Assembly (NCBI RefSeq): GCF_026151205.1
Contig: NC_087081.1
Span: forward strand, 1,423,386-1,462,885
Source: Bolinopsis microptera
Lineage: Eukaryota; Ctenophora; Tentaculata; Lobata; Bolinopsidae
Length of the DNA stretch: 39,500 nt
Reading direction: 5' to 3'
This document shows positions 1,236 through 29,460 of this stretch, piece after piece. The translations under genes and the position numbers were made by a program. The notes beneath the pieces are model-generated. The model made no database searches, had not been told where the DNA came from, and saw only the letters and a program-made list of their open reading frames with translations. How positions within the stretch are numbered: the stretch's first letter is position 1; each line of letters begins with the position of its first letter.

Positions 1236-4200
1236 ATGTCCGACTCAGATCTTTTCGCGCGACTGGAATCTGCGGATGGAGATTCACCCTCGAACTCGCA
1301 AGAAGGAGATGAGTCGCGATCGATTCCAGACAGCGGCATCTCAATTAATGAAAAACCACAGCTTTATAAACAGCTTTATGATGAAGATGCGGACGTTAAA
1401 CTGGACCGTGGCACGAAAGGAGGCAAGCGTCAAGTATATGATAGTAATGGGTGCATCATTGGTATGTTTTTCAATAACTATTTTTCATGACTATTTACCA
1501 ATGAAAATATATATTTATGGTCATATACCCAGATCCCGATGGCACTGTCGCGGCACTCTCGTGGCACTTTCATTATGAAGGTATAATGATTGTCTTATGC
1601 TTTTGAAAGAACATGATTAAAAGTTGGCACTATGCCTCCATACTGCCATACTGCCGCCATAATGCCGCGACAGTGCCGCCATAGTGCCACGAGAGTGCCA
1701 CGTGAGTGCCATGAGAGTGCCACGAGAGTGCCACGAGAGTGCCACGTGAGTGCCACGAGAGTGCCACGAGAGTGCCACGAGAGTGCCACGAGAGTGCCAC
1801 GAGAGTGCCACGAGAGAACCACGAGAGTGCCACGAGAGTGCCACGAGAGAACCACGAGAGTGCCACGAGAGTGCCACGAGAGTGCCACGAGAGTGCCACG
1901 AGAGTGCCACGAGAGTGCCGTCGGCCGGATCGGGATTCGAATGTATGACAACATTTATATATTATACTCATTGGAAGGCAGATGCTCAGCTTCACGAAGC
2001 TGAAAGAGACTTGGTGTGTGAGTCAGTGCGAGGTATGGTGCAACCTCTTACCTCTTAGTAGAGCGGGAATTGGTTTCGGTGATTGGAAGAAGCCCTGGGA
2101 GAAGATGTCAGAAAAGGAGCAGCAGAGGGAGGTGTTGGATAGGGTTAAGGAGAACATCAGGAAGGAAAGAGAGGTGCAGTTGGGTACGTTGGAGATGCAG
2201 TCCAGGTGGGGTAATTGGAGAGAGTTGGTGACAAGGACTGACATGAGCTGGCACACGCTCTTCAAGTATGGGGACTCATTAATCGGTTTTCTGCTTAGTG
2301 CTGTGTATGGCACGCTTGTTACACCAGCTTTAGCATCCAAGTGGAGCGAGGATGAGGATGGGATGTGCAAGCTGTGTGGTGACAAGTTGGGAACTGTGCC
2401 GCATATCCTGGCTGGTTGTCCTGTGGCACTAAGTCAAGGGAGATACCGATGGCGCCACGATAAGGTGCTTAAACAAATAGCAGACCAGGTTAAATTCCAT
2501 TGTGAGCGGAGAGTCAACAAGAGGAAGAGTTCTTGTGTCACTCGGAAAGCCATTGAGTTTGTCCCAGCAGGAGGGAGGTTTAAGGAGGTGAAGAGGTCGA
2601 AAGTCAGTGAGTTTGGGATTCTGAGTGGGGCCACTGATTGGATAGTATTAGCAGACCTGGATAAGCAGCTGAAATTCCCGTCGGATATAGCAACGACCAG
2701 ATTAAGACCAGATTTGGTTCTTTTCTCGAAAGCTTCCAAGAGAGTAATCTGGTGGGAGCTTACAGTACCGTCGGAAGAGAGAATAGCTGCATCCCATGAG
2801 CTGAAGCTTGATCGGTATAACAGTCTACAAGCGGAAATACAAGCTAATGGGTGGTCATGTTTCAGCTTTGCTGTTGAGGTTGGTGCTAGAGGTGTGGTCG
2901 CAGCAAGTTTGGAGTGTGCATCAAGGAAGATTGGTCTGACTGGGAGAGCCCTCAAGAAGTTGGTCAGAGACTGTGGGAAGGATGCAGCCCATTGTTCAAG
3001 ATGGATTTATCTGCTGTCTAGGAAAAGAGAGTGGGAGATGAGAGCTGTTTGAGCTTTATGACTTCACCTAACAGCCAGAGGTACCATAAGCTAACTCGTC
3101 GTAAATCGCGAGCTCTAGCAGGTATCCTCGGGTGATTGTCAGATCAGATGGTGGTCCAAGAGAGACTGCTGGGGCACCTGACAGAAAACCGTATCGCAAT
3201 GAAAGCCCCGAAACGGTGTCAGGTTTGTGACTGAAGATTCTGATCAAGCTCAGGGTTGAGTCTACACAGTGTCGCCACTTGCCGATGCCATTTGATGCGA
3301 GAAGACACTGATGTAAGTGGGAAGTTATGTCTAAGAAACAGCGTGTGGTTCGGGTGCCGGTTGAACGCATGTAAAAGGGAGGGTATATCCGTATTTCGCT
3401 GCTAGTGATGCAGTCCTTGGCCCGGTAGCTAAGGCTTCCCCGTTTCTCGCTCATTTGTGCTCCGATGGGCTTGTGACCTCTGAGGGGGTCAAGTGCAGGA
3501 TGAGGGACATGGCCGACCAGGAGAATGTTGTTTTTGGGAGATAGAGTAGGGTTGATTTGGTGTTGTGCCTTCGCAGTTTAACTGTATCTTTACTCTATCA
3601 TGTTTAACTGTTTAAAGCCACAGGGAAAATATTGACAAAGCTGAAAAAATGATTATTATTATAACTTATTGATTAATTACATAATAGTGACAATTATGGT
3701 CACAGGTTTTTTAAAAATTAACAAGTTGAGGCAGTTATCCTTTTTCCATTTCAGGATCCAAACTTCCAAAACGATATCGAATGATGATGTTGATGTTCGC
3801 TTGTCTTGGAAATTTCGTAGTCATCATCTCCAGGCTTTATCCATCAGGGTTCTACCTGGATTTCATCTTGACAGAGGATTTGAGCACCACGCTAGGTAAG
3901 AATTTGCGAATGAACTCATTTATTCTACATTTAAAAAAACTTTTTAGCAAATTTTTAACGATGATATTTTGCATTTTTAGAACGCTACGTGAAATGTGAA
4001 CGTGGATATCTTAAATCAAAATGCTTTAAGCATTTTCAATTATAACTAATAATATTGGTACAGCTGCTTCAAATATTTCTCATCGCAGGAACAATATCTA
4101 TATCAATCATGTTAGTTACATCTGCAATGAGCCCTCTCGTCAACTATTGTCTTCCAAAATCCATCAAAAAATCCTCTCTGTCCATTCGGTGCCTTGTCCT

Positions 4201-5643
4201 GTGCTTTGTCAACGCTCTCTGTATAGCTCTGATGTCCTTGGTGGATGTAACCTTACAGCATGATCCTACTGGAAATACAGCCTTCGCGACTATATTTGTC
4301 CTAAGAGGAGTCCAGGGCATCGTTGTTGGCTTGCTTTACATTTTAGTCCAGGTATGAATACTAAATTACCAAAAACAAACTTATACATAATATATATCTT
4401 ACGAGACATATTTATACTCGACAAAATTCCGGTGACCTAAATGATTTGATTTTGATTTTGGGAATGAAAATATAGGATTTTTTGCCGAAAACCAACTCAT
4501 TTCGTACCTCAAGTTAAATCATGGTATTTGGGGATTTTTTCATTTCTTTATTTTACAAAAATAAAACTCAATATTTGGGGCTGGGTAAACGAAGGGCCTG
4601 TTGTGCTTATTTTTACAAAGATACAATACACGTATGACCGATTAAGTTAATGTTAAAACATTACAAATTTTTAACGATACGGAATGTAAATTGATAATGA
4701 TGACGACAAATTTCAGGGTGAAATTGTGGATTTATACTTCAAGGACGACAACATGCCAATCATACTGATTAGCGCTTTCCTACAAATCGGAGCTATTCTC
4801 TCTGCCATCCTCAGTGCTGAGCTCTTCGTCTATGGAGGTTGGGTCTTTGTCGGTCTGGTCATAGCTTGCTTCAACTTTTTCCCCGTGATGCTTCTGCCAG
4901 CCGTGAGAACAGTGCACAATGATACAAATATCAAAAAAAATCACGGCCAAGGCGTTAAAAGGGAACTGTTAGCCCAAAATTCGGTTGAAAGTTGTATCAT
5001 CTCGGAGAGAAGCAATCGATTTGAAACGGTTACAAGTAGGACCCGGAAGGTGGCATTCTACATTCCAGATTTGATGGTGTTCTTCAACAATCTGGTTTGT
5101 GACCTGATTGCATATGCCCTTCCAGCCAGAATCGTACTTTACAGTCAGATCCCTTTGAGCACCGCAGTGCCTTTGTTTCAAACTGGAAACCTGTGCTCAC
5201 TTTTCGCTGCTTTAACCTTTAGTTACTTAGCAAGTAGGAATAAAAAGTTTGACGTTATTGGATTAATGACAATAGCAAATATCATGTATTATTTCGGTTC
5301 AATCGTGGCATTTGCTTCTACAACGACTACTATGCAGTTCTTAGATTTCCCCTATCAGTTGCTTATAGGCTTAGTCTTTATGGGGATAGGTGAAGCAGGC
5401 CATTTGAACCTCTGCATCTTAAGCAAGTTTGCCCTCTACGATAAGTGGAATATGAGAAAAACTGGCCTGGGTAAAAGATCTACCATATTAAACAACGTGG
5501 CACTTAGCTTGTCTTCTGCCGCAGGAACTGCCATATCTGGATACTCATTAACCGAGGAAAGTGAAATCCCTACTGTGTCAACTCTGATAGGACTTGGTGT
5601 TTGCCTCACTGCCGTATCTTTGTTCTGTAAGCATGTGAAGTAG
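1236..5643 (+). CDS. MFS-type membrane transporter, four coding exons
   Basis: Exons are 1236-1461, 3755-3895, 4089-4351 and 4717-5643. All have GT-AG introns and consistent phases (1, 1, 0), giving 518 residues. Residues 1-75 are an acidic, Ser-rich, probably cytosolic N-terminus. From about residue 84 (KRYRMMMLMF) come roughly twelve hydrophobic segments. A hydrophilic loop in the middle (exon 4, about residues 275-320) matches the central loop of MFS carriers. Basic patches after TM2 (LPKSIKK) and in the second half (YLASRNKKF) sit where the MFS signature loops lie. Length and layout fit the family. The substrate is unknown; an SLC18-like or SLC17-like relation is only a guess. The first intron is 2.3 kb and full of repeats. 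A possible AATAAA lies at 6311. The next gene is convergent. Confidence 0.8.
1507..1963. repeat. 11-bp minisatellite inside terminal inverted repeats
   Basis: About 26 units of 11 bp (TGCCACGAGAG type) run from about 1632 to 1920. The left end is degenerate (TGCCGCCATAA, TGCCGCGACAG) and the rest is nearly uniform. The flanks are imperfect inverted copies of each other. The left flank (about 1507-1567) reads ATATATTTATGG, then GATCCCGAT, then GGCACTCTCGTGGCAC. The right flank (about 1903-1963) is its reverse complement with changes. This suggests a small non-autonomous TIR element whose interior became a minisatellite. The several open frames across it on both strands are repeat artefacts. 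It lies in intron 1 of the MFS gene. Confidence 0.75.
1965..3052 (+). pseudogene. C-terminal remnant of an RLE-class (R2-like) non-LTR retrotransposon
   Basis: The main open frame (1982-3052) encodes the end of a non-LTR retrotransposon polyprotein. It has a zinc knuckle CX2CX8HX4C (residues 129-146 from 1982) followed by a restriction-like endonuclease core R-P-D-X14-E (residues 242-259, then LTVPSEE). That order is known for R2, NeSL and related elements. The stretch ALSQGRYRWRHDKVL between them is typical of animal members. Homology appears to begin in another frame (WKADAQLHEAERDLV, from about 1971) and continues in the main frame at SRAGIGFGDW. A frameshift therefore lies near 2045-2060. 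The reverse transcriptase core is missing, so this is a 5'-truncated dead copy. It is nested in MFS intron 1 in the gene's orientation. Confidence 0.85.
3053..3754 (+). other. Probable 3' tail of the retroelement and end of MFS intron 1
   Basis: About 550 bases after the retroelement stop are GC-richer than the intron around them and have no credible ORF. They are most likely its 3' UTR, ending somewhere near 3600. The remainder is ordinary AT-rich intron leading to the acceptor TTTCAG at 3754. No poly(A) tail or clear target duplication was found. Confidence 0.4.
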
Positions 5644-9300: not shown

Positions 9301-10728
9301 AAGAAGAAAACAATTTATATGTTATAGAAGAAAACAAAAATAATAATAATATATAATATATATTATAGTAATAATGTCTCTAAAGATTGATCGCTTCTCG
9401 TGTGCAGTGTGTAGACTAAAGAAAGAGGTAGTTTTTCCCGTTAAAGTAACTTGTGGCCACATCCCGCTAGAAGTGAGTAACCTGTGCCACTATTTCATGG
9501 TCAACGGTGGATTGATTACTGGAGCAGTTGAAGATGCAATTGCAAAGCCAAGACGTTCCCAAATACCAAGCGGTATGGTAACCTAGTTGGTAACCTAGTA
9601 ACCAAGTAACCTAGTAACCAAGTAACCAAGTAACCTAGTAACCAAGTAACCAAGTAACCAAGTAACCAAGTAACCAAGTAACCAAGTAACCAAGTAACCA
9701 AGTAACCAAGTAACCTAGTAACCAAGTAACCAAGTAACCAAGTAACCAAGTAACCAAGTAACCAAGTAACCTAGTAACCAAGTAACCGAGTAACCAAGTA
9801 ACCACGTTACCAAGTAACCAAGTAACCAAGTAACCAAGTAACCAAGTAATCAAGTAACCAAGTAACCAAGTAATCAAGTAACCAAGTAACCAAGTTGATA
9901 TTCTAGTTGCTAACTTGGTAAGTGACCTAGAGTTTGTAACATATACAGACTTTTCAGTAAAACGTGCAAAACAAATTATAACCAGTAACCTGGGTAAGGT
10001 AAAGTATTGTCCACGATGTCATAAGCTTCCTTTATGGTGTACAGTCCCTGGGTCCAGCAGTAATCCTCCGCAAAAGCAGCTGAGAACTTGGTGAGCCCGT
10101 CACACGCTATAATACCCCCTGTGTACTGACGGAACGTCACTGAAATTTACGTTTTAGCTCCGGACTCATTACTCAATTTTGTAGTTTCATAAGTAATAAT
10201 AGGATAATATTATGTTGTTACCTTTTTATCCGTGCTAGTTATTCAGGTTTTTGGGTACCGGGCCATCCTGGTTACCCTGCTTTGAGCTGTTCCCCTGGCT
10301 TATGCAAGTCTAGTTTACCCATATATATAGAGATATAGGATGATATATCTAACTTATGCAGGTCTAGTTTACCCATATATATAGAGATATAGGATGATAT
10401 ATCTAATTTTAAAGTAAGCCGGTTAGTGGTTAACTGAGAAGCTGCATGCCACGTGACTTACCGAACTTAATTTCGGTTCATCATAAATAATAATCAAAAA
10501 AAATTAATCAAAAAGGTAAAGTGGGTAAAGATGGCCAGAGGCCAAAAGGGCAAGCTGTAAGGTGAAGCTGTAAAGGCAAGTTGAATTGTGGTGAGACTAA
10601 CCGACAGTTCCAAATATGACACACAACAGGAACATGTAACATCTGTTGACCTGGTCCCATTTGTCATCAAGAACTATTTCTTTGAAAGGTGTTGCTCCCT
10701 TGAAGTTTGCTAGTATCTCCAATAACAT
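6374..10728 (-). CDS. inx: Innexin gap-junction protein, eight exons
   Basis: Exons in transcript order are 10728-10602, 10139-9990, 8939-8840, 8679-8544, 7514-7352, 7228-7137, 6997-6916 and 6744-6374. The phases agree at every junction and give 406 residues, normal for the family. The ATG at 10728 (MLLEILANFKG) is preceded in frame by a stop. TM1 is about residues 31-47 (YMFLLCVIFGTV then TFRQYTG). Extracellular loop 1 carries Cys in ACDG, DYCW, PPCL and IVCP. The family signature YQWVPF is at residues 132-137, opening TM2. TM3 (FFLIFLTKIFYLGVSLATM) follows a cytosolic loop. Loop 2 holds ACEIKRWGPSG and GMCVLAPN, and TM4 is NQYLFLIFWFALVL. Innexins form six-pass channel subunits that couple cells or act as hemichannels. 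One donor (after residue 171) is the less usual GTAGGT. Introns carry 8-bp arrays and duplications. Confidence 0.95.
9572..9895. repeat. 8-bp tandem array, TAACCAAG type
   Basis: About 40 units of 8 bp (TAACCAAG, with scattered TAACCTAG) lie in the innexin intron between 9990 and 8939. In the gene's sense direction the unit is GGTTACTT or GGTTACTA. The array starts about 95 bases past the exon donor GTTACTGG. It is related to the CTGGTAAC arrays elsewhere in the window. Frames of VTWLLGYL repeats are artefacts of an 8-bp period. Confidence 0.95.
10299..10406. repeat. 54-bp direct duplication in innexin intron 1
   Basis: Two tandem copies (10299-10352 and 10353-10406) differ by one base (TGCAAG versus TGCAGG). 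Each contains an AT-rich block, CCATATATATAGAGATATAG. It lies in the intron between exons 10728-10602 and 10139-9990. It appears to be a recent slippage duplication of no known function. Confidence 0.9.
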
Positions 10729-11356
10729 CTTCTACTCATCCTGGGACCAAGTGATGTTAAAATGCTGGTAACCTGGTAACCTGGTAACCTGGTAACCTGG
10801 TAACCTGGTAACCTGGTAACCTGGTAACCTGGTAACCTGGTAACCTGGTAACCTGGTAACCTGGTAACCTGGTAACCTGGTAACCTGGTAACCTTGAAGT
10901 TTGCTAGTATCTCCAATAACATCTTCTACTCATCCTGGGACCAAGTGATGTTAAAATGCTGGTAACCTGGTAACCTGGTAACCTGGTAACCTGGTAACCT
11001 GGTAACCTGGTAACCTGGTAACCTGGTAACCTGGTAACCTGGTAACCTTGAAGTTTGCTAGTATCTCCAATAACATCCTCTACTCATCCTGGGACCAAGT
11101 GATGTTAAAATGCTGGTAACCTAGTAACCTGGTAACCTGGTAACCTGGTAACCTGGTAACCTGGTAACCTGGTAACCTGGTAACCTGGTAACCTGGTAAC
11201 CTGGTAACCTGGTAACCTGGTAACCTGGTAACCTGGTAACCTGGTAACCTGGTAACCTGGTAACCTGGTAACCTGGTAACCTGGTAACCTGGTAACCTGG
11301 TAACCTTGAAGTTTGCTAGTATCTCCAATAACATCCTCTACTCATCCTGGGACCAA
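10699..11356. repeat. Composite repeat: innexin exon-1 start copies alternating with 8-bp arrays
   Basis: A 66-bp block covers the first 30 coding bases of innexin exon 1 plus 36 bases upstream. It occurs as the genuine copy (10699-10764), twice more intact (10893-10958, 11047-11112) and once partially (11305-11356). Between the copies are pure CTGGTAAC arrays at 10765-10892, 10959-11046 and 11113-11304. In sense orientation each extra copy reads ATG plus nine codons and then runs straight into GTTACCAG, so AAG|GTTACC mimics a splice donor. The outermost copy departs from the others after GGGACCAA. The displaced original upstream sequence seems to resume at about 11451 (GGACCAAGTGATG). Confidence 0.92.
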
Positions 11357-13804: not shown

Positions 13805-16800
13805 CTAAACTGGTTGTCCATCACTCGTCTCTGGAGGGGGATCAGAGGGAGAGGCTGCTGGGGGTTCTACTGGAGATTGGTCTTGTGAATTGTTAGGTTG
13901 GTTGTTAGGTTGGTTGTTAGGTTGGTTGTTAGGTTGGTTGTTAGGTTGGTTGTTAGGTTGGTTGTTAGGTTGGTTGTTAGGTTGGTTGTTAGGTGAACCG
14001 CTTTCTGGCCATTCTTCGTACTTTGGAGGAGGTTCACTTGGTGTTGGGGGTTTCTGAAACATGATAATTTGTACAGTACTTACCTCCGTTTGTTAGTTTG
14101 TTAAATGAGGAGGGTTAGATTCCTGTTACTAACCTGGTAACCCTGTATCCTGGTAACCTGGTAACCTTGCAACCTAGTAACCTTTTAACCTTGTAACTTT
14201 GTAACCTTGTAACCGTTTAACCTTGTAACCTTGTAACCTTGTAACCTTGTAACCTTGTAACCTTGTAACCTTGTAACCTTGTAACCTTGTAACCTTGTAA
14301 CTTTGTAACCTTGTAACCGTTTAACCTTGTAACCTTGTAACCTTGTAACCTTGTAACCTTGTAACCTTGTAACCTTGTAACCTTGTAACCTTGTAACCTT
14401 GTAACCTTGTAACCTTGTAACCTTGTAACCTTGTAACCTTGTAACCTTGTAACCTTGTAACCTTGTAACCTTGTAACCTTGTAACCTTGTAACCTTGTAA
14501 CCTTGTAACCTTGTAACCTTGTAACCTTGTAACCTTGTAACCTGGCAACCTTGTAACCTTGTGACCTTGTAACTTTGTAGCCAGGTAACCTTGTAACCTG
14601 GTAACCTGGTAACCTGGTGACCTTGTAATTTTGTAGCCAGGTAACCTTGTAACCTGGTAACCTGGTAACCTTGTAACCTTGTAACCTGGTAACCTTGTAA
14701 CCTGGTAACCTGGTAACCTGGTAACCTGGTAACCTGGTAACCTGGTAAACTGGTTACCTGATAACCTGGTTACCTGGTTACCTGGTAACCTGGTTACCTG
14801 GTAACCTGGTAACCTGGTAACCTGGTAACCTGGTAACCTGGTAACCTGGTAACCTGGTAACCTGTTAACCTGGTTACCTGTTAATATGGTAACCTGGTAA
14901 CCTGATAACCTGGTAACCTGATAACCTGGTAACCTGGTAACCTGGTAACCTGGCAACCTGGTAACCTGGTAACCTGGTAACCTGGTAACCTGGTAACATG
15001 GTAACCTGGTAACCTGGTAACCTGGTAACCTGGTTACCTGGTAACCTGGTTACCTGGTAACCTGGTAACCTGGTAACTTTGTAACCTGGTAACCTGGTAA
15101 CCTGGTAACGTACTAACCTGATACTGGTAGGTTGGAGGAACTATTGTTTGGTATAAAGGAGGATTGGGTTCCTGTTGTCGGTGTTGGGACAGCATTATCA
15201 TCTGAAATATGTTGGCTTTAATCAACAGGGCGATGTTTGATAAATTTCAGTTTGCAAAATTCGACTGATTTGTGCAGGATTAAACGTTTATGCAGGCCTA
15301 GGGACTAGGAGTTATAATTGATAATCAGCAGGCCTAGGGACTAGGAGTTATAATTGATAATCAGCAGGCCTAGGGACTAGGAGTTATAATTGATAATCAG
15401 CAGGCCTAGGGACTAGGAGTTATAATTGATAATCAGCAGGCCTAGGGACTAGGAGTTATAATTGATAATCAGCAGGCCTAGGGACTAGGAGTTATAATTG
15501 ATAATCAGCAGGCCTAGGGACTAGGAGTTATAATTGATAATCAGCAGGCCTAGGGACTAGGAGTTATAATTGATAATCAGCAGGCCTAGGGACTAGGAGT
15601 TATAATTGATAATCAGCAGGCCTAGGGACTAGGAGTTATAATTGATAATCAGCAGGCCTAGGGACTAGGAGTTATAATTGATAATCAGCAGGCCTAGGGA
15701 CTAGGAGTTATAATTGATAATCAGCAGGCCTAGGGACTAGGAGTTATAATTGATAATCAGCAGGCCTAGGGACTAGGAGTTATAATTGATAATCAGCAGG
15801 CCTAGGGACTAGGAGTTATAATTGATAATCAGCAGGCCTAGGGACTAGGAGTTATAATTGATAATCAGCAGGCCTAGGGACTAGGAGTTATAATTGATAA
15901 TCAGCAGGCCTAGGGACTAGGAGTTATAATTGATAATCAGCAGGCCTAGGGACTAGGAGTTATAATTGATAATCAGCAGGCCTAGGGACTAGGAGTTATA
16001 ATTGATAATCAGCAGGCCTAGGGACTAGGAGTTATAATTGATAATCAGCAGGCCTAGGGACTAGGAGTTATAATTGATAATCAGCAGGCCTAGGGACTAG
16101 GAGTTATAATTGATAATCAGCAGGCCTAGGGACTAGGAGTTATAATTGATAATCAGCAGGCCTAGGGACTAGGAGTTATAATTGATAATCAGCAGGCCTA
16201 GGGACTAGGAGTTATAATTGATAATCAGCAGGCCTAGGGACTAGGAGTTATAATTGATAATCAGCAGGCCTAGGGACTAGGAGTTATAATTGATAATCAG
16301 CAGGCCTAGGGACTAGGAGTTATAATTGATAATCAGCAGGCCTAGGGACTAGGAGTTATAATTGATAATCAGCAGGCCTAGGGACTAGGAGTTATAATTG
16401 ATAATCAGAAGTTGATTAAAACTATCACCACAAGGTATATGAACTCCTTGATTAGGTCTAATGCAACACTAATACAGGGTCTGAGTTCATAATACTGGGG
16501 CTGCATCACTCCTCCTCGTTACCTGGTAACCTGGTAACCAGGTTACCTGGTTACCAGGTTACCAGGTTACCAGGTTACCAGGATACCAGGTTACCTGGTT
16601 ACCTGGTAACCTGGTTACCCCAGCCCTACACTTACCTCATCCTGCCGGTATCTCTCATTGTACCAGTCGCTTAGCCGTCTGGCCTGTCTGAAATTATGGA
16701 CGGTAATTAACTTTAAGTGCATTGTGCAAAGTTGAAATGCTACTCTAAATTAAGTCATGCGATTATGGGGTAATCAAAATCTTAAAATTAAAATGTATTT

Positions 16801-19307
16801 TTGTTTTTTATGAAATCATAAATTCAGAATAGCTAGGGTAAATAAATAATGTTTGCCAAACTTATTTTTGCTGGTTTATGGATACAACCTTGTAACCTGG
16901 TAACCAGGTAACCAGGTAACCTGGTAACCTTGTAACCTGGTAACCAGGTTACCTGGTTATCTGGTAACCAGGTAACCAGGTAACCTGGTAACCTTGTAAC
17001 CTGGTAACCTGGTAACCTGGTTACCAGGTTACCTGGTTACCTGGTAACCAGGTTACCAGGTAACCTGGTAACCTTGTAACCTGGTAACCTGGTAACCTGG
17101 TAACCTGGTAACCTGGTTTATGGATACAACGTACCCGAAAATCCCCGTAATTATACTCCAGAAGTAAGCGATAACGGAAATGTTTAATATTATTAATAGA
17201 ATCAACCAGAACCAATATGAATCAACTTTCAAAAACATTATCCGCCATAAAAATAAGACTATCCCCATAAACTACATCAGTTAACAACACACCATTAACA
17301 TGAACCTTGCAGAGTACAAGTATGATGAAAAGTGGTTGAAACGTGTATAATTACTAGATGCCGTAAGATTCGAAGACAAGTAGTGAGTGATACTGCTATA
17401 TAGTGACTATATAGTGACATTAGCAGCTTAATTTTCTTTACACTAGCCTAGTGTAAGCTAAATTGTAAGCTAAATTGCTCTATGCTACATAAGTTACGTT
17501 TGCTCATGACTCATGAGTGTTAGAGGTAAATGGAGAGAAGCACTGGCACGAAACTCGTTCCAGACTCCATCTGAATCGAACTAGGCAGGCAGGCATATAT
17601 ATTATCCGAAACTTAGAATAACGTTATTTGTATTTTACTTTGTTTTTCAACAAAAAACAGACCTGCACCAGGCACCTGTTCCCCTCTCTTGACATACAAA
17701 TTAGTTTAATGTTACAAAATAATTGTCAAGCAGTTCAAAATTTGAGCTAATTCTTTGTCTCAAAACAACTGTGAGTCTACACGATCACAAATAAACCAAC
17801 AGATGCACAATGAACTTACTGCCTAGATACTGCCCTGACAACAGATACACAATGAACTTACTGCCTAGATACTGCCCTGACAACAGATACACAATAAACT
17901 TACTGCCTAGATACAGCCCTGACAACAGATACACAATAAACTTACTGCCTAGATACTGCCCTGACAACAGATACACAATGAACTTACTGCCTAGATACTG
18001 CCCTGACAACAGATACACAATGAACTTACTGCCTAGATACTGCCCTGACAACAGATACACAATAAACTTACTGCCTAGATACTGCCCTGACAACAGATAC
18101 ACAATGAACTTACTGCCTAGATACTGCCCTGACAACAGATACACAATGAACTAACTGCCTAGATACTGCCCTGACAACAGATGCACAATGAACCTACTCC
18201 TAGATACTGCCCTGACAACAGATACACAATGAACTTACTGCCTAGATACTGCCCTGACAACAGATACACAATGAACTTACTGCCTAGATACTGCCCTGAC
18301 AACAGATACACAATGAACTTACTGCCTAGATACTGCCCTGACAACAGATGCACAATGAACTTACTGCCTAGATACTGCCCTGACAACAGATACACAATGA
18401 ACTTACTGCCTAGATACTGCCCTGACAACAGATACACAATGAACTTACTGCCTAGATACTGCCCTGACAACAGATACACAATGAACTTACTGCCTAGATA
18501 CTGCCCTGACAACAGATGCACAATGAACTTACTGCCTAGATACTGCCCTGACAACAGATGCACAATGAACTTACTGCCTAGATACTGCCCTGACAACAGA
18601 TGCACAATGAACTTACTGCCTAGATACTGCCCTGACAACAGATACACAATGAACTTACTGCCTAGATACTGCCCTGACAACAGATGCACAATGAACTTAC
18701 TGCCTAGATACTGACCTGACAACAGATGCACAATGAACTTACTGCCTAGATACTGCCCTGACAACAGATACACAATGAACTTACTGCCTAGATACTGCCC
18801 TGACAACAGATACACAATGAACTTACTGCCTAGATACTGCCCTGACTTCTGGATCCTCAAATATAATGATGATGAACACCTGGTAACCTGGTAACCTGGT
18901 AACCTGATAACCTGATAACCTGGTAACCTGGTAACCTGGTAACCTGGTAACCTGGTAACCTGGTAACCTGGTAACCTGGTAACCTGGTAACCTGGTAACC
19001 TGGTAACCTGGTAACCTGGTAACCTGGTAACCTGGTAACCTGGTAACCTGGTAACCTGGTAACCTGGTAACCTGGTAACTTACTGCCTAGATACTGCCCT
19101 GACTTCTGGATCCTCAAATATAATGATGATGAACACGACTATGCAAGCGAAGCAAAAGAAAGTCAGCATCACCCACAACCACCAGTCAGTGTTAGAGTTC
19201 ATCTCCCCGCTCTCCATCCCACCAGCTCCTGGTGACATCTCTCCTCCTCCTCCTCCCATTTCTCCTCCTCCTCCCATTTCTCCTCCTCCTCCTACATCCC
19301 TCTCCAT
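13805..19307 (-). CDS. Single-pass membrane protein with cytosolic PPxY tail
   Basis: Exons are 19307-19084, 16687-16636, 15201-15118 and 14053-13805. The phases (2, 0, 0) agree and give 202 residues. Residues 1-40 are Gly/Glu/Met-rich (GGGGEM repeats) with no signal peptide. The membrane segment is 41-64 (DWWLWVMLTFF to FIIIIF). A charged juxtamembrane stretch (QARRLSDWYNERYRQDE) follows. Then come three PPxY motifs: PPLY (106-109), PPTY (114-117) and PPKY (129-132). The tail then has eight PNNQ repeats and a Pro/Ser/Glu-rich end. PPxY motifs bind WW domains of NEDD4-type ubiquitin ligases or YAP-like proteins. The layout recalls WBP1, VOPP1 or Shisa-like adaptors, but the family is not proven. 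The upstream exons at 24855-27829 may be alternative 5' exons. Every intron is packed with arrays. Confidence 0.75.
13889..13996 (-). repeat. Coding 12-bp repeat (PNNQ)8
   Basis: A 12-bp unit (GTTGGTTGTTAG on the plus strand) is repeated eight to nine times inside the last exon of the PPxY protein. It encodes PNNQ in frame. The near-perfect copies suggest recent slippage and probable length polymorphism. Confidence 0.9.
14131..15110. repeat. 8-bp arrays filling almost a whole intron
   Basis: This is a near-continuous 8-bp period. Units are mainly TTGTAACC at about 14161-14550 and CTGGTAAC at about 14550-15110, with inverted GGTTACCT interruptions around 14750-14890 and 15030-15055. The host intron (14054-15117) is 1,064 bp, and about 90% of it is this array. 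On the sense strand the array begins within about 8 bases of the donor CAG|GTTAGTACGTTACC. A long minus-strand frame (14321-14956, VTRLPGYQ or VTRLQGYK) is an artefact. Confidence 0.95.
15292..16408. repeat. 36-bp satellite, 31 near-identical copies
   Basis: The unit starts GCAGGCCTAGGGACTAGGAG and ends TTATAATTGATAATCA. It is 36 bp long, and 1,117 bp holds 31 copies with no difference that I could see. The array occupies most of the intron between exons 16687-16636 and 15201-15118. Each unit contains the palindrome AGGCCT and the near-palindrome CCTAGGGACTAGG. There are no spacers, so it is not a CRISPR array. It does not visibly derive from an exon. Confidence 0.97.
16518..17117. repeat. 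Mixed-orientation CTGGTAAC/GTTACCAG arrays
   Basis: Two clusters (16518-16618 and 16884-17117) contain the 8-bp motif in both orientations. This creates many perfect short palindromes such as GGTAACCTGGTTACC. Between them, 16636-16687 is exon 2 of the PPxY gene and the rest is plain intron. The short ORFs at 17021-17268 are artefacts. Confidence 0.9.
17118..17784. other. Intron sequence without features
   Basis: AT-rich intron of the PPxY gene. There are short local duplications (TATAGTGACTATATAGTGAC near 17399; AAGCTAAATTGTAAGCTAAA near 17455) and nothing codable. Confidence 0.4.
17800..18850. repeat. 42-bp array of about 25 copies derived from an exon end and its splice donor
   Basis: On the plus strand the unit begins CTGCCTAGATACTGCCCTGA and ends CAACAGATACACAATGAACTTA. 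On the sense (minus) strand each unit holds GTCAGGGCAGTATCTAGGCA followed by GTAAGTT. This matches the last coding bases and donor of the transmembrane exon at 19084. Variation is low (ATACAC versus ATGCAC; AATGAAC versus AATAAAC). Because 42 is a multiple of three, long frames stay open on both strands (18159-18860, 18181-18714). These are not in the exon's own frame, and I do not call them genes. Confidence 0.95.
18824..19136. repeat. Duplicated exon edge flanking an 8-bp array
   Basis: 56 bases spanning the end of the transmembrane exon and its donor (19081-19136) recur at 18824-18879. Between them, 18880-19080 is a pure CTGGTAAC array (about 25 units). The inner copy leads directly into the 42-bp array. 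The layout mirrors the innexin exon-1 repeat at 10699-11356. Confidence 0.93.
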
Positions 19308-22625: not shown

Positions 22626-22645
22626 ATTATAGACAGGTTCTGTTT

Positions 22646-22726
22646 ACACGTGATGCCTATATTTGGTAATATTGAGTAAACCTATTATATGTGTACTCAA
22701 TATTACCAAATATGGGCATCACGTGT
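22646..22726. repeat. 33-bp inverted repeat with 15-base loop
   Basis: The arms 22646-22678 and 22694-22726 are complementary except for one position that would pair as G-U in RNA. It begins ACACGTGATGCC and ends GGGCATCACGTGT. It lies just past the LINE tail. It could be a miniature foldback element or a pre-miRNA-like hairpin. Confidence 0.85.
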
Positions 22727-22739
22727 AATACTATACGGG

Positions 22740-24854
22740 GCGTACCCGTACTGCGTACAATACAGACTGGTTTATGATTTTATGTTGTCGCAAATATAGT
22801 TAAGTGGGCAGAATGTTAAGTGGTTTGTGAAATGCGCGTTTATCAGGGATTGTGCCGTGAGTACGTGCAATTGAAGCTAGTAACAACCGACAGAAAGTAA
22901 AATAGCACAATACTGTAAACTGGCAGTACAATGGTGTTGGTTTTCTTTATTGACATAAAGTGCAGCCTTGATAAACACGTATAACTACCTGCATACACAA
23001 TACAAATACTCAAGGCGCGGTGCAGCGTCTCCCTTATTTTTCTGTTATGAGACTTCTTGTGCAAATAAATCCTTGTGTTTGAACGAGGAGCAGCGAAATT
23101 ATGATTTGACAATGAACATTTTGTGCCTCCTTTTAATACACAAATAATAGTAATAAATCAGGATCATCTGTCATACACCGACGACTTTTTATGAGCTTAA
23201 TTTTTAGTGGTGGTAGTCAGTAAAAGCAAAACAGCGACAACTTAAATTGAATATTCTAAAATCACACCAAAAATTAAAAACAAAGTTGAGCTGTCAATAA
23301 AGTATAAACACTAGTTTTATAGCAAGGGAGTTGGCTTCTAAGTAAATTCCTGGAAGTGGTTATAGGTACTTTATAATTATAATGACTTGATTGACCACTA
23401 CCCAGACAATTATGCTCTGATCGATAAACTGTCGTCTTTTTATTTCCTGTTTCGCAGAAAGTTGTGATCACTGTTCTAATACGAATAAATTCGTTTGTTT
23501 TCGTGGAAAAATCTAAACTAGCGGTGCTGTATCCGGAAACAAATCTTTCAAACAAACCTTTCAGTAGTGATGGTAAGTTGTAGTTTAGTAGTTTTAGGGC
23601 ATGATTGAAGATTGGAAAACTATAAACTTTTAAGTGGCTCTATTACGACCATGGGACTACTATAAACAACTTGTGGCCCAATTTCGACTTTTCTTAGACA
23701 GGGTAGATTGGGAAAACAACTATAAACCTAATCAGTCTACCTAGTAAAGTTTGAAACTACAACTATACCCATAAATCGTCACTAAAAATATAGCGATCAC
23801 TTGAAAATCAAACAAGTTTTCAAACGCAGCTTTAGATTACTTGCTGCCTATCGACGCCAAATTTATCTTGTTCGTCCAATTAGGCTGATTGGGTGCCTAT
23901 AGTTTACTGTTTGGGAACTGGGTCCAATAGGATGAAGTCGTGGGTCACCCGACCCTGGTTCATATAAAGGTGATACTTAGCAAATTAGGGGAGTAGTGAG
24001 TACTGAGTACAGCTTAATGAGACTCCAAGAAATTAACAACAGCTTTCAATCTTGCTTTATTATAAAGTGGCCATCCGCCATAAACGATTTATTATAGCAT
24101 GCAGTTTTTACAGAGCGAGATTAATGTAAGATTAACGAAACGATATCTTTAAAGAAATCTGTTCGATTATGGATACATATTTTGTATGGTCTTCAATCTA
24201 AATGATCGAGAAATGTTTACTGGGGCTTTTATCCCTTTACCTAAATGTTACTGATGTTAATGTATTAATTCTGGTCATTAACACCTTATCAAATGAAGAA
24301 GACGCCCGATACTTGCATTGAAATTTCGGAATTAAGCTATTTTTGGGCCTTACTGTTTCTCCTCGTGATCAATACATGAACCTGAGAGCTTGAGAACTTA
24401 GTCACTTAGGATCAATGTGTTCAAACCTTATAGTCATATCAGAAAGCCGTAACTATATGGTTATAATGTTAGTTTGGCTGCAATTCTAGTTCCATCACTG
24501 AACAAAGGATGCTGCCAGTATAGACGTGGCGTGTTATCACTGATAGCATCATATTTTATTTTACTACTATAATACAAAAGAAGGTTATGTGCCGCTATAT
24601 ACTGCTTGGTAGGGGAACCATATTTATTCTGAAATGTGGCAATGATTTTGGGTTTTGATTGGTTATAATACTGGAAACTGATTGGTCACGGTTCAACTTC
24701 ACCTCCTCATTACTATCCAGATCTACTGAAGAGTGCAACAACAAAGCGTGAGCGTGCTTGATGTCTTGACTAAGACATTACCAGTTCAGCTTACGAGTAT
24801 GGTGGTTAAAGACAATAATGCGAATATGAAAACAGGAAGATATTTTTAAAATAC
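22740..24854. other. Intergenic or long intron, no supported gene
   Basis: I looked on the minus strand for PPxY-encoding exons that would complete the transmembrane exon at 24855-24951 and found none. Short frames at 22843-23112 and 23274-23555 carry no recognisable motif. The region may simply be intron if that exon splices to 16687. Confidence 0.4.
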
Positions 24855-27829
24855 CCATATCCAGGAGCACTCTCCTCAAAGCAGGAGGTTATTATGATGA
24901 TGATGAGGAGCAGGAACATCATCGCGAACAGAAACCATAACCACCAGTCACCTGCAAGGGTTATGCAACAGTTGTTGAAATATCCAATCGCAAAATTTTG
25001 ATGAACAACAAAGAAAAAAAAAGGAGTTCGGAGCGGTGTGCAAAATATCTAAATGTTTCACTAAAGTTTTGTAACACAGTTACACAAAAGAGATCATAAC
25101 AAAGAAACTGTCCTGGTGTACTGACCGGTAGCGTTGTAGGAGGCCTCCAGGTCAGTTTGAGCGTCACAGCACGTGACTGAATCTCCTTCAGTACAGCAGT
25201 TCTGCAGGTACACACCGTACAGGCAGGGTCATTTAACAAATCATTGCAGTCATTCAAACTTTAAAGGATGTTTGAGGGGAGGAATATGAGTGGCAAAACT
25301 CATATTTCTGACTAAGAGACACATAAATTAAATTACGAAGGAAAGTAGAAGAAAGCATTTATATTACTATATTAATAGTAATTGATTTATGTTGTAGAAC
25401 TGACCTTGTCAATGTCGCAGCATGTAGCAGATATGGTGTTAGAGCAACACGTCTCAGTAGAGCTACAGTACTCGGTGAACTTCTTCAGCATGAAGTAGAA
25501 GTTGGGCCCGCAACATGTTCCACCGGTGTTCACTACACACCCCAACCCTTCACAGCACTGCAGGGAACATTTTAAACTACTACACACCCCAACCCTTCAC
25601 AGCACTGTAGGGAACATTTTAAACTACTACACACCCCAACCCTTCACAGCACTGTAGGGAACATTTTAAACTACTACACACCCCAACCCTTCACAGCACT
25701 GTAGGGAACATTTTAAACTACTACACACCCCAACCCTTCACAGCACTGTAGGGAACATTTTAAACTACTACACACCCCAACCCTTCACAGCACTGTAGGG
25801 AACATTTTAAACTACTACACACCCCAACCCTTCACAGCACTGTAGGGAACATTTTAAACTACTACACACCCCAACCCTTCACAGCACTGTAGGGAACATT
25901 TTAAACTACTACACACCCCAACCCTTCACAGCACTGTAGGGAACATTTTAAACTACTACACACCCCAACCCTTCACAGCACTGTAGGGAACATTTTAAAC
26001 TACTACACACCCCAACCCTTCACAGCACTGTAGGGAACATTTTAAACTACTACACACCCCAACCCTTCACAGCACTGTAGGGAACATTTTAAACTACTAC
26101 ACACCCCAACCCTTCACAGCACTGTAGGGAACATTTTAAACTACTACACACCCCAACCCTTCACAGCACTGTAGGGAACATTTTAAACTACTACACACCC
26201 CAACCCTTCACAGCACTGTAGGGAACATTTTAAACTACTACACACCCCAACCCTTCACAGCACTGTAGGGAACATTTTAAACTACTACACACCCCAACCC
26301 TTCACAGCACTGTAGGGAACATTTTAAACTACTACACACCCCAACCCTTCACAGCACTGTAGGGAACATTTTAAACTACTACACACCCCAACCCTTCACA
26401 GCACTGTAGGGAACATTTTAAACTACTACACACCCCAACCCTTCACAGCACTGTAGGGAACATTTTAAACTACTACACACCCCAACCCTTCACAGCACTG
26501 TAGGGAACATTTTAAACTACTACACACCCCAACCCTTCACAGCACTGTAGGGAACATTTTAAACTACTACACACCCCAACCCTTCACAGCACTGTAGGGA
26601 ACATTTTAAACTACTACACACCCCAACCCTTCACAGCACTGTAGGGAACATTTTAAACTACTACACACCCCAACCCTTCACAGCACTGTAGGGAACATTT
26701 TAAACTACTACACACCCCAACCCTTCACAGCACTGTAGGGAACATTTTAAACTACTACACACCCCAACCCTTCACAGCACTGTAGGGAACATTTTAAACT
26801 ACTACACACCCCAACCCTTCACAGCACTGTAGGGAACATTTTAAACTACTACACACCCCAACCCTTCACAGCACTGTAGGGAACATTTTAAACTACTACA
26901 CACCCCAACCCTTCACAGCACTGTAGGGAACATTTTAAACTACTACACACCCCAACCCTTCACAGCACTGTAGGGAACATTTTAAACTACTACACACCCC
27001 AACCCTTCACAGCACTGTAGGGAACATTTTAAACTACTACACACCCCAACCCTTCACAGCACTGTAGGGAACATTTTAAACTACTACACACCCCCAACCC
27101 TTCACAGCACTGTAGGGAACATTTTAAACTACTACACACCCCAACCCTTCACAGCACTGTAGGGAACATTTTAAACTACTACACACCCCAACCCTTCACA
27201 GCACTGTAGGGAACATTTTAAACTACTACACACCCCAACCCTTCACAGCACTGTAGGGAACATTTTAAACTACTACACACCCCCAACCCTTCACAGCACT
27301 GTAGGGAACATTTTAAACTACTACACACCCCCAACCCTTCACAGCACTGTAGGGAACATTTTAAACTACTACACACCCCAACCCTTCACAGCACTGTAGG
27401 GAACATTTTAAACTACTACACACCCCAACCCTTCACAGCACTGTAGGGAACATTTTAAACTACCTACACACCCCAACCCTTCACAGCACTGTAGGGAACA
27501 TTTTAAACTTTTTCCTCAGATTTATGGTTATGGGTATGATCAAACGGAAAAGTTTCATGAGAGAATATTACTACATGTTCTACTTTCTACAAATTCAACC
27601 CCTTCAGGGCTGCCACAAATAGCGGCCAGAACGAGGAACGAGGATGCTGCAGTTTTTGAAATTACATTCTGTCATTCAAATTTCCGGATAATAAATATTC
27701 TGCAGAACAAAGAGAACAGCCCCTTCGAAATAAAAATATTAAATACTAAAGTACTAATACCTCCTCTGTAGCATGATCACAGATTTGCTGTCGACCATTT
27801 ACGGTATAGCATCCGCCATCATTGCTCAT
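24855..27829 (-). CDS. Cys-rich ectodomain and second TM exon (partial gene or alternative 5' exons)
   Basis: Four phase-consistent exons are seen: about 27829-27761 (5' edge uncertain), 25557-25405, 25201-25126 and 24951-24855. They encode DGGCYTVNGRQQICDHATEE, then CCEGLGCVVNTGGTCC, EYCSSTETCCSNTISATCC and NCCTEGDSVTCCDAQ, then NATGDWWLWFLFAMMFLLLIIIIITSCFEES. This is a Cys-pair-rich extracellular module directly followed by a membrane helix. The WBP1/VOPP1 and Shisa groups have a similar layout. The helix exon is a paralogue of the one at 19084-19307 (both DWWLW... then FE[D/E]). It also ends in phase 2, so it could splice to 16687 and gain the PPxY tail. No signal peptide exon was found upstream. 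Confidence 0.65.
25561..27508. repeat. 47-bp array of about 42 copies derived from a 3' splice site
   Basis: On the sense (minus) strand each unit reads TTTAAAATGTTCCCTACAG followed by TGCTGTGAAGGGTTGGGG and TGTGTAGTAG. That is the 3' splice site and the first 25 bases of exon 25557-25405. The genuine site differs by CTGCAG versus CTACAG. Copies are almost identical; three have an extra C (near 27085, 27280, 27325) and one has an extra C near 27462. The array fills most of the intron between 27761 and 25557. Read as extended exon, each copy would hit a stop 11 codons in (GTA GTA GTT TAA). Confidence 0.97.
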
Positions 27830-29460
27830 CAAAAACTGTCTGATAGACTTGGACCCTTTGCTTCTGCGATAGATGTTTTCATTGCGCAATAGATAATTAA
27901 TTAGTCTAAAGATCCGAGGTAAATGAACTGAAACCATCACAGTATCATATTCAGGAAAGGAACACCAGTACTATACAATTACAACAAGATAGTCGAATAA
28001 AACTTACATAAAATTACACTGCTTCTTTCTAAATTTCGAAATGAAGCAGTTTTATCTGAAATTCATCCATCAACTTGAAAGTTTCAAAGTATAAAATTGT
28101 ACAGCAATATAGCTTCTTAGCTTTAATAGCAAAATGTACATCATGAGTTGGATATACAAACTTAGAAAATCACGCGACGTATTTGTAAACCAAGTATCAC
28201 AAGTAAAATTACATAAATCCTTCTCTCACTGTCTCCCTTTCCTTGTCTCTGTTTCCCTGTCCCAGCTCCATCTCTAAAAATGTCGTGTCACTAAATAATG
28301 CTGTCACTGTAACATAGTATAGCGGACTCACTGCATTATGTGGTATTATACGGTGCGATCGCTAACTAACTAGGCCTAGGTCACTAGTGGTAACTAGCGG
28401 TCACTAGCGGTCACTAACTAGTGCGGTTATCTCCCTCTACATTATTCCTAGATCAGTAGATCTCAGCCCTGAGCCCTGGAAAAAGCGATTATTCATACGG
28501 TTCAATTAGCCAATAATGTTTATCTGGAACTGTTTGATTATGGTATTCTCCTGGATACAGTGCAGAAAACTCTAACTCGATAATAGACTGCTGCAGTCAA
28601 GGAGGTGGTCCGCAGGTTGCATGATGGCCGTGAAGATGCCCACTTCCCAAATTCATACAACGTATGACAACTCAAAGTTTGCACGTGCGAAAGGCCGTGA
28701 GAATTTTGCTCATTCGTGACTTCGAATAAATTTTGCTTTCCCACGACATTTTGATGGCATTATGTACTTATATATGAATTTAATGCCCATGTATGTATTA
28801 TACCCCTTTATTGTTTTCAGGCATTAAGACTCACCGAAATTAGTAGTTCAGCAGGCATATTTTAAGTTCAGAACATTTTTTTCAATGTCAAAGATGACAG
28901 GAATAAGAAATAGTTATGTGGAGGTTTTTAAGAAATTTGCACAAAATACGCGCCAGCATGTTATACGAAATTTGAACTTGAATGAGTAAAATTTCCATAT
29001 TCAGTCAGTTATCGACATACATGCCTACCTAAACACAAGGAAATTTTTTCAAAGGTAAAGTTACGAAATCGTTGAAATTACCTCTTTAATTAATGAAGTT
29101 ATGAGTTTACATTCCGGATTTGTAAATTATCCTGACATGATAATCAAAAAGAGATGATATTTGAGCAAAACCCATAATCATGGGTAGAGTGGACCGCAAC
29201 AGTGTCTCTCTCTCTCTCTCCCAAACAAAAAGAAATGATATTAATTTGAATAACCGTCCGGAAATGCAAATTGATACCGGGAATGAAATCGGTCGCTCGC
29301 TTTTCTCATTACTTAGAAAGTTCATCATTACTTAGAACTTTAGAATTCAAACTCATTTTAACGGCTCAGTTAGTAAAGATCCCAACATCCTCAGAGAGAT
29401 TTAAATTTCAAAAGTTTCCGAGCATTTATAAAGAATCTCGATGTTGTAGTTTAAAATTTG
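27830..29460. other. Upstream of the Cys-rich exons, no supported gene
   Basis: No convincing signal-peptide exon was found on the minus strand. A short tandem patch (CGGTCACTAG, 2-3 copies) lies near 28385-28425. A CT dinucleotide run lies at about 29202-29221. The remainder is AT-rich. Confidence 0.35.

Follow-up and report, generated by a model that had tools for sequence, protein, structure and literature searches.

Why would a putative ctenophore gene carry dozens of nearly identical copies of its own 3′ splice junction directly upstream of the exon that this junction opens? A preliminary description of a 39,500-nucleotide stretch of the Bolinopsis microptera genome (the window) reported about 42 tandem copies of a 47-bp unit, took the unit to be a 3′ splice junction with the first 25 bases of a Cys-rich exon, and offered two readings: a splicing sink or regulator, and neutral satellite growth that began at a splice site. 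Its observation of the array was borne out, and its interpretation in part. TRF placed the array at 25532–27509, on the minus strand (period 47, 42.0 copies, 99% matches, score 3913; total length 1,978 bp), which is far above chance. A census of the units between successive AGs showed that 37 of 41 full units were identical 47-mers, in agreement with the near-unchanged amplification originally proposed. Read on the minus strand, the unit is AGTTTAAAATGTTCCCTACAG followed by the 26 bases TGCTGTGAAGGGTTGGGGTGTGTAGT; it contains a weak branch-like motif (TTTAAA), a good pyrimidine tail leading to the intron end TGTTCCCTACAG with its AG, and 26 exon bases. The exon head common to the units is 26 bases long rather than 25.

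The array held 42 minus-strand AGs, of which CCCTACAG accounted for 41 and CCCTGCAG for one, in the last copy; that is, there were 41 decoy acceptors and the putative real one. The single-base difference beside the AG that had been pointed out (CTGCAG in the last copy, CTACAG in the 41 others) is real. Variation among the units was otherwise slight: a G run carried an extra G in 3 of 41 units, and another extra G was found in 1 of 41, the 5′-most. Private variants were present in the first and last units, and three more occurred in units 4, 5 and 9 counted from the 5′ end. Across its 1978 nt, the sense strand contained 84 G runs at least three bases long, and RNA quadruplexes formed from these runs are conceivable.

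Two simpler accounts of the array were rejected. A dispersed element was ruled out, as all 19 genome matches listed for the unit fell within the window array (in a search that skips very common words). A coding tandem repeat was ruled out as well: the six frames of 25562–27508 contained 25–58 stops each, no frame was open through the array, and the longest open stretch was 74 codons. As had been predicted, entry through any copy other than the last leads to an early stop: all 41 upstream copies hit a stop before the putative real exon, and this happened after 10 codons in five of the six window decoys for which details were listed.

A plausible minus-strand gene runs in the order 27927–27761, array, 25557–25405, 25201–25126, 24951–24806. 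The proposed upstream exon (27761–27927) is open in one frame, ends in phase 0 at the donor GTATTA, and has an unremarkable codon score (44.5% of random open stretches reach the same score). It would be followed by an intron of 2203 nt (25558–27760) with all 41 decoys inside it; 272 nt separate the donor from the first of these. The last copy, with CTGCAG, opens a Cys-rich exon (25405–25557) of 153 nt or 51 codons, which is followed by the donor GTCAGT; its codon score ranked among the best 7.5% when set against random open stretches, its donor at the 91st percentile and its acceptor tail at the 88th. After an intron of 203 nt comes a proposed exon at 25126–25201 (codon score in the top 4.4%; donor GTCAGT at the 62nd percentile), and after another of 174 nt a proposed last exon at 24806–24951, which contains a hydrophobic, transmembrane-like stretch and a stop (codon score unremarkable, 29.6%; acceptor at the 80th percentile in the first matrix described below).

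Splice sites were scored against introns of the same genome. An intronless actin was aligned to 15 actin or actin-like regions, which yielded 61 called introns; 36 of these reached a support of 20 or more on each side and ranged from 124 to 1914 nt (median 202.5). A first acceptor matrix, built from 35 introns with exon positions included, gave the window acceptor a 3rd-percentile rank, a score that 32% of random AGs also reached. Because actin exons share heads, exon positions were dropped from a second, tail-only matrix (34 introns with CAG or TAG ends, 32 after removal of near-identical tails). Here the used tail TGTTCCCTGCAG reached the 88th percentile (9.79, with CTGCAG) and the decoy tail the 69th (8.19, with CTACAG). 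Five acceptors preserve phase 0 and leave the frame open; of these, 25557 scored 9.79 and the remaining four fell below 0. All 32 reference introns outscored both the branch-like TTTAAA and the upstream GTATTA donor. On phase, open frame and tail score, the unit appears to span an exon–intron border, the donor and branch motif being weak.

No relatives of the window gene were found in Pfam, PDB or its own genome. Taken alone, it is probably a real gene; lacking a homologue, with a weak donor and branch motif and equivocal codon usage, it is the least certain host among the arrays described here. Elsewhere in the window, an open frame at 4690–5643 on the plus strand gave an MFS_1-like match below the curated cut-off (E 1.8e-6, 27.6 bits). 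A 367-codon open frame at 1949–3052, also on the plus strand, gave a weak zf-RVT match below cut-off (E 0.021) and may belong to a retroelement's tail. Visual inspection of the minus strand showed a long inverted repeat at about 22645–22727, perhaps a small transposon or hairpin.

Similar arrays occur in other genes of this genome. We searched it for tandem acceptor words and fetched 24 acceptor-like loci from among the matches listed, a sample that is biased because a branch motif, judged by eye, was part of the choice. At 4 of the 24, a family or structure match supports the exon that the last copy opens. A TSP_1 exon (L059, C2 near 1.0417 Mb; Pfam E 3.4e-15) is preceded by 3 acceptors 45 bp apart, and a PSI exon (L073, C3 near 14.329 Mb; Pfam E 4e-10) by 12 acceptors in 32-bp units, one interval measuring 27, where the exon bases common to the units number two. 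An OTUD7B/A20-like locus (L060/L068, C2 near 15.154 Mb) has 13 acceptors 53 bp apart; two hand-joined exons matched OTUD7B at E 1.8e-12, while the Pfam OTU match stood at E 0.26. An ABCA gene (L084/L079, C13 near 1.830 Mb) has 9 acceptors 47 bp apart, and its exon alone matched ABC_tran at 4.1e-7 and ABCA3 at 3.9e-15. Together with the tail score of 25557, these four arrays bear out the proposal that the unit resembles a 3′ splice junction amplified beside its own exon. As to the rest of the sample, L056 was covered by TRF, L061 and L062 lie in one array that was followed to a point short of its 3′ end, L070 and L071 were not counted among the exon-opening loci, six loci (L074–L078 and L080) were not tandem by the test used, and no convincing exon was found at the remaining acceptor-like loci of the 24. 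At L062 (C3:10523950-10525500), every unit of the 47-bp array contains TTTTCAG; the retrieved stretch covers 32.9 copies, and the array runs on past both of its ends.

At the ABCA locus, the exons flanking the array were joined, and the resulting peptide aligned to ABCA1 without interruption where the two meet (VAPG|ECFGLLG; E 1.1e-26). The last copy is therefore the true acceptor at this locus, and on this alignment the ABCA unit spans an exon–intron border beyond reasonable doubt. The intron would measure 104 nt via the first decoy and 480 nt via the true site. The used acceptor and the preceding decoy matched perfectly for 156 nt on the upstream side and 29 nt on the downstream side. In the final 25 bases of the intron, 6 of 8 ABCA decoys, 5 of 12 OTU decoys and 3 of 11 PSI decoys equalled the used site, versus 0 of 41 in the window and 0 of 2 in TSP_1, where one base differs. 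Decoys ran into a stop in 8 of 8 cases at ABCA, 10 of 12 at OTU and 10 of 11 at PSI, and in 0 of 2 at TSP_1, whose 45-bp unit keeps the frame.

Three donor arrays were also examined. One (L081; 54-bp spacing, about C1:428.6-430.9 kb) is preceded by a Sushi-like exon whose Pfam match falls below the curated cut-off (E 0.0024); another (L082) lies entirely within its array, and L083 was the third. Genome-wide, triples of the donor word GGTAAGT gave 6114 matches versus 66, 727 and 1623 for three permuted words, a 3.8- to 93-fold difference in match counts, which are driven by a few large arrays.

Could such arrays arise by chance? In a random sample of twenty 5-kb pieces from eight large contigs, TRF arrays covered 20,308 of 100,000 bases (20%). 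Five arrays in this sample had a period of 16–200 and at least 10 copies, which scales to about 13,000 in the genome (95% interval 4,300–31,000). With intron number assumed to be 40,000–120,000, the expectation by chance is 30–660 arrays that hold an acceptor; we concluded from this load and this expectation that chance seeding suffices. An excess of acceptor words in arrays was considered and rejected: TTTTCAG gave 1077 matches, more than one permuted word (195) and fewer than two others (1786 and 2816). A branch-plus-acceptor pattern gave 47 matches versus 9 for a single control, again as match counts driven by a few large arrays. The window itself contains other minisatellites: a very homogeneous 36-bp array at 15292–16408 (31.0 copies, 100% matches), a 42-bp array at 17797–18846 (25.0 copies by TRF), and related 8-bp-unit arrays of the TAACCTGG/GGTAACCA kind at 9590–9895, 10765–11306, 14130–15120, 16886–17117 and 18878–19079. 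A minus-strand open frame of 306 codons (18159–19079) covers part of the 42-bp array and the adjoining 8-bp array.

The window array is probably best explained as a mirage, that is, a minisatellite seeded by chance where a ctenophore gene has a 3′ splice junction, nearly neutral, with upstream copies that are mostly ignored. Neutral expansion was the better of the two readings first offered. The array would have grown to 42 copies within the intron via slippage or unequal exchange. The spliceosome would take the last copy, presumably because it alone precedes an exon body and donor. The upstream copies would do little beyond lengthening the intron; they would probably vary in number, and they could serve as raw material for aberrant or new exons.

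The name comes from amphioxus, where tandem duplications of intron–exon borders are called mirages (PMC3087553); the suggestion that there is no named element class of this kind is therefore mistaken (PMC3087553, PMC3902484). Amphioxus mirages are known in Adh3 and the globins BflGb6 and BflGb9 (PMC3087553, PMC3902484), to which PGBD5 and TnC have been added (PMC3902484), and BflGb6 units comprise the 3′ end of an intron and a 5′ part of the exon (PMC3087553, PMC3902484). By the same accounts, they are unstable in length (PMC3087553, PMC3902484), and RT-PCR found regular splicing undisturbed by them (PMC3087553). The intron-gain model set out there likewise involves a tandem duplication that carries splice signals (PMC3087553).

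Set against those descriptions, the window array has the sequence features of a mirage. Both are minisatellite-like tandem copies across an exon–intron border; many amphioxus copies retain AG or GT, and the window copies keep AG in 42 of 42; and in both the end units lie outside the homogenisation of the middle ones. By these features the window array is a predicted member of the mirage class. It differs in host phylum (a ctenophore rather than amphioxus), in copy number (42, versus 3 and 6 in two BflGb6 haplotypes) and in unit length (47 bp, versus 150–160 bp in BflGb6 and 10–72 bp in Adh3). Regular splicing and length instability, moreover, have been shown for amphioxus mirages, whereas the window array is known here from sequence alone. 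As in the intron-gain model, signal-bearing copies could become a new intron or exon, but the copies here sit within a pre-existing intron. Judging by its title, work on human IFI6/G1P3 concerns a minisatellite that likewise lies on a splice junction with many sites; those are donor sites, in contrast to the acceptors of the window array, and the closer analogue in this genome is the donor array before C1:430.9 kb (L081). The paper that named mirages reportedly appeared in 2002 and the IFI6 minisatellite paper in 1995.

The lack of relatives, the weak donor and branch motif, the 3rd-percentile score in the first matrix and the unremarkable codon scores of two of the four exons weigh against the mirage reading. 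They favour an intronic or intergenic minisatellite with no real exon starting at 25557, the open frame belonging to a dead gene or arising by chance. We consider this unlikely. The phases 0, 0 and 1 are consistent across the four exons, the two ordinary introns have typical lengths and high-scoring donors, and 10 Cys in 51 codons were matched or exceeded in 13 of 3085 random open stretches. Four proven arrays in the genome are, in addition, built in the same way.

If the exon is real, the array could still act as a sink or rheostat, in which splicing to the decoys scales with how many there are, the early-stop products are degraded, and copy number sets output; a truncated form that lacks the membrane stretch is possible within this scheme. 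All 41 window decoys reach a stop, and their tails score at the 69th percentile of real acceptors. They would also be transcribed first. Splicing to the first decoy would remove an intron of normal length, 272 nt, and splicing to the putative real site one of 2203 nt, so that decoys would be favoured under intron definition. None of the 74 decoys in the five arrays has lost its AG; this count is silent on selection because the units differ so little, with too few substitutions between them for selection to be revealed. Similar arrays stand in conserved genes, however, where decoys are identical to the used site, and amphioxus mirages leave splicing intact (PMC3087553). A sink is accordingly a doubtful explanation of the window array. 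We regard as rather improbable the broader claim that mirages are frequent in ctenophores and that their unstable arrays, with as many as 42 splice sites that hardly differ, are copy-number-tuned acceptor competitors; if it were true, array length would set the yield of functional mRNA, and output would vary between individuals or cells.

The identical decoys at ABCA, OTU and PSI rule out a local mark of the used site as a general rule. At ABCA, where used site and preceding decoy agree over 156 + 29 nt, local sequence cannot choose between them, and we infer that, if the gene makes protein, the choice is set further downstream or by position. The simplest established principle of this kind is exon definition, under which the acceptor beside an exon body and its donor wins. 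By analogy with ABCA, the same principle may operate at the window array. A local mark is possible in the window and in TSP_1, because there one base separates the used site from the decoys.

The copying might also have run the other way, with an intronic minisatellite first and its last unit taken into the exon; direction is not readable from one genome. By inspection, though, the Cys residues of the head seem to fit the spacing of neighbouring Cys, and the exon part of the ABCA unit encodes ECFGLLG, which is conserved in ABCA proteins, so that at ABCA the exon came first. For the window, we judge an array-first order of events highly improbable. An assembly artefact, to which the identity of 37 of 41 full units might point, is scarcely credible given the private variants in four units and in the last acceptor and the similar or larger arrays in the random genome sample.

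In the literature searched, largely titles and the beginnings of abstracts, we found no report of mirages outside lancelets, and a search that combined ctenophores and minisatellites returned papers on other subjects by title. Measured against the amphioxus papers, the ctenophore host and the recurrence across genes are new, and the copies exceed those of the globin mirages. In line with such a host, a glutamate receptor from this genome had three entries for ML032222a iGluR, a protein of the ctenophore Mnemiopsis, as its best PDB matches. The presence of mirages in conserved genes of this ctenophore suggests that they go with an extreme load of minisatellites and are no peculiarity of chordates. 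Such arrays would be natural experiments on splice-site choice, in which the parts played by local sequence, transcription order and the downstream exon may be told apart.
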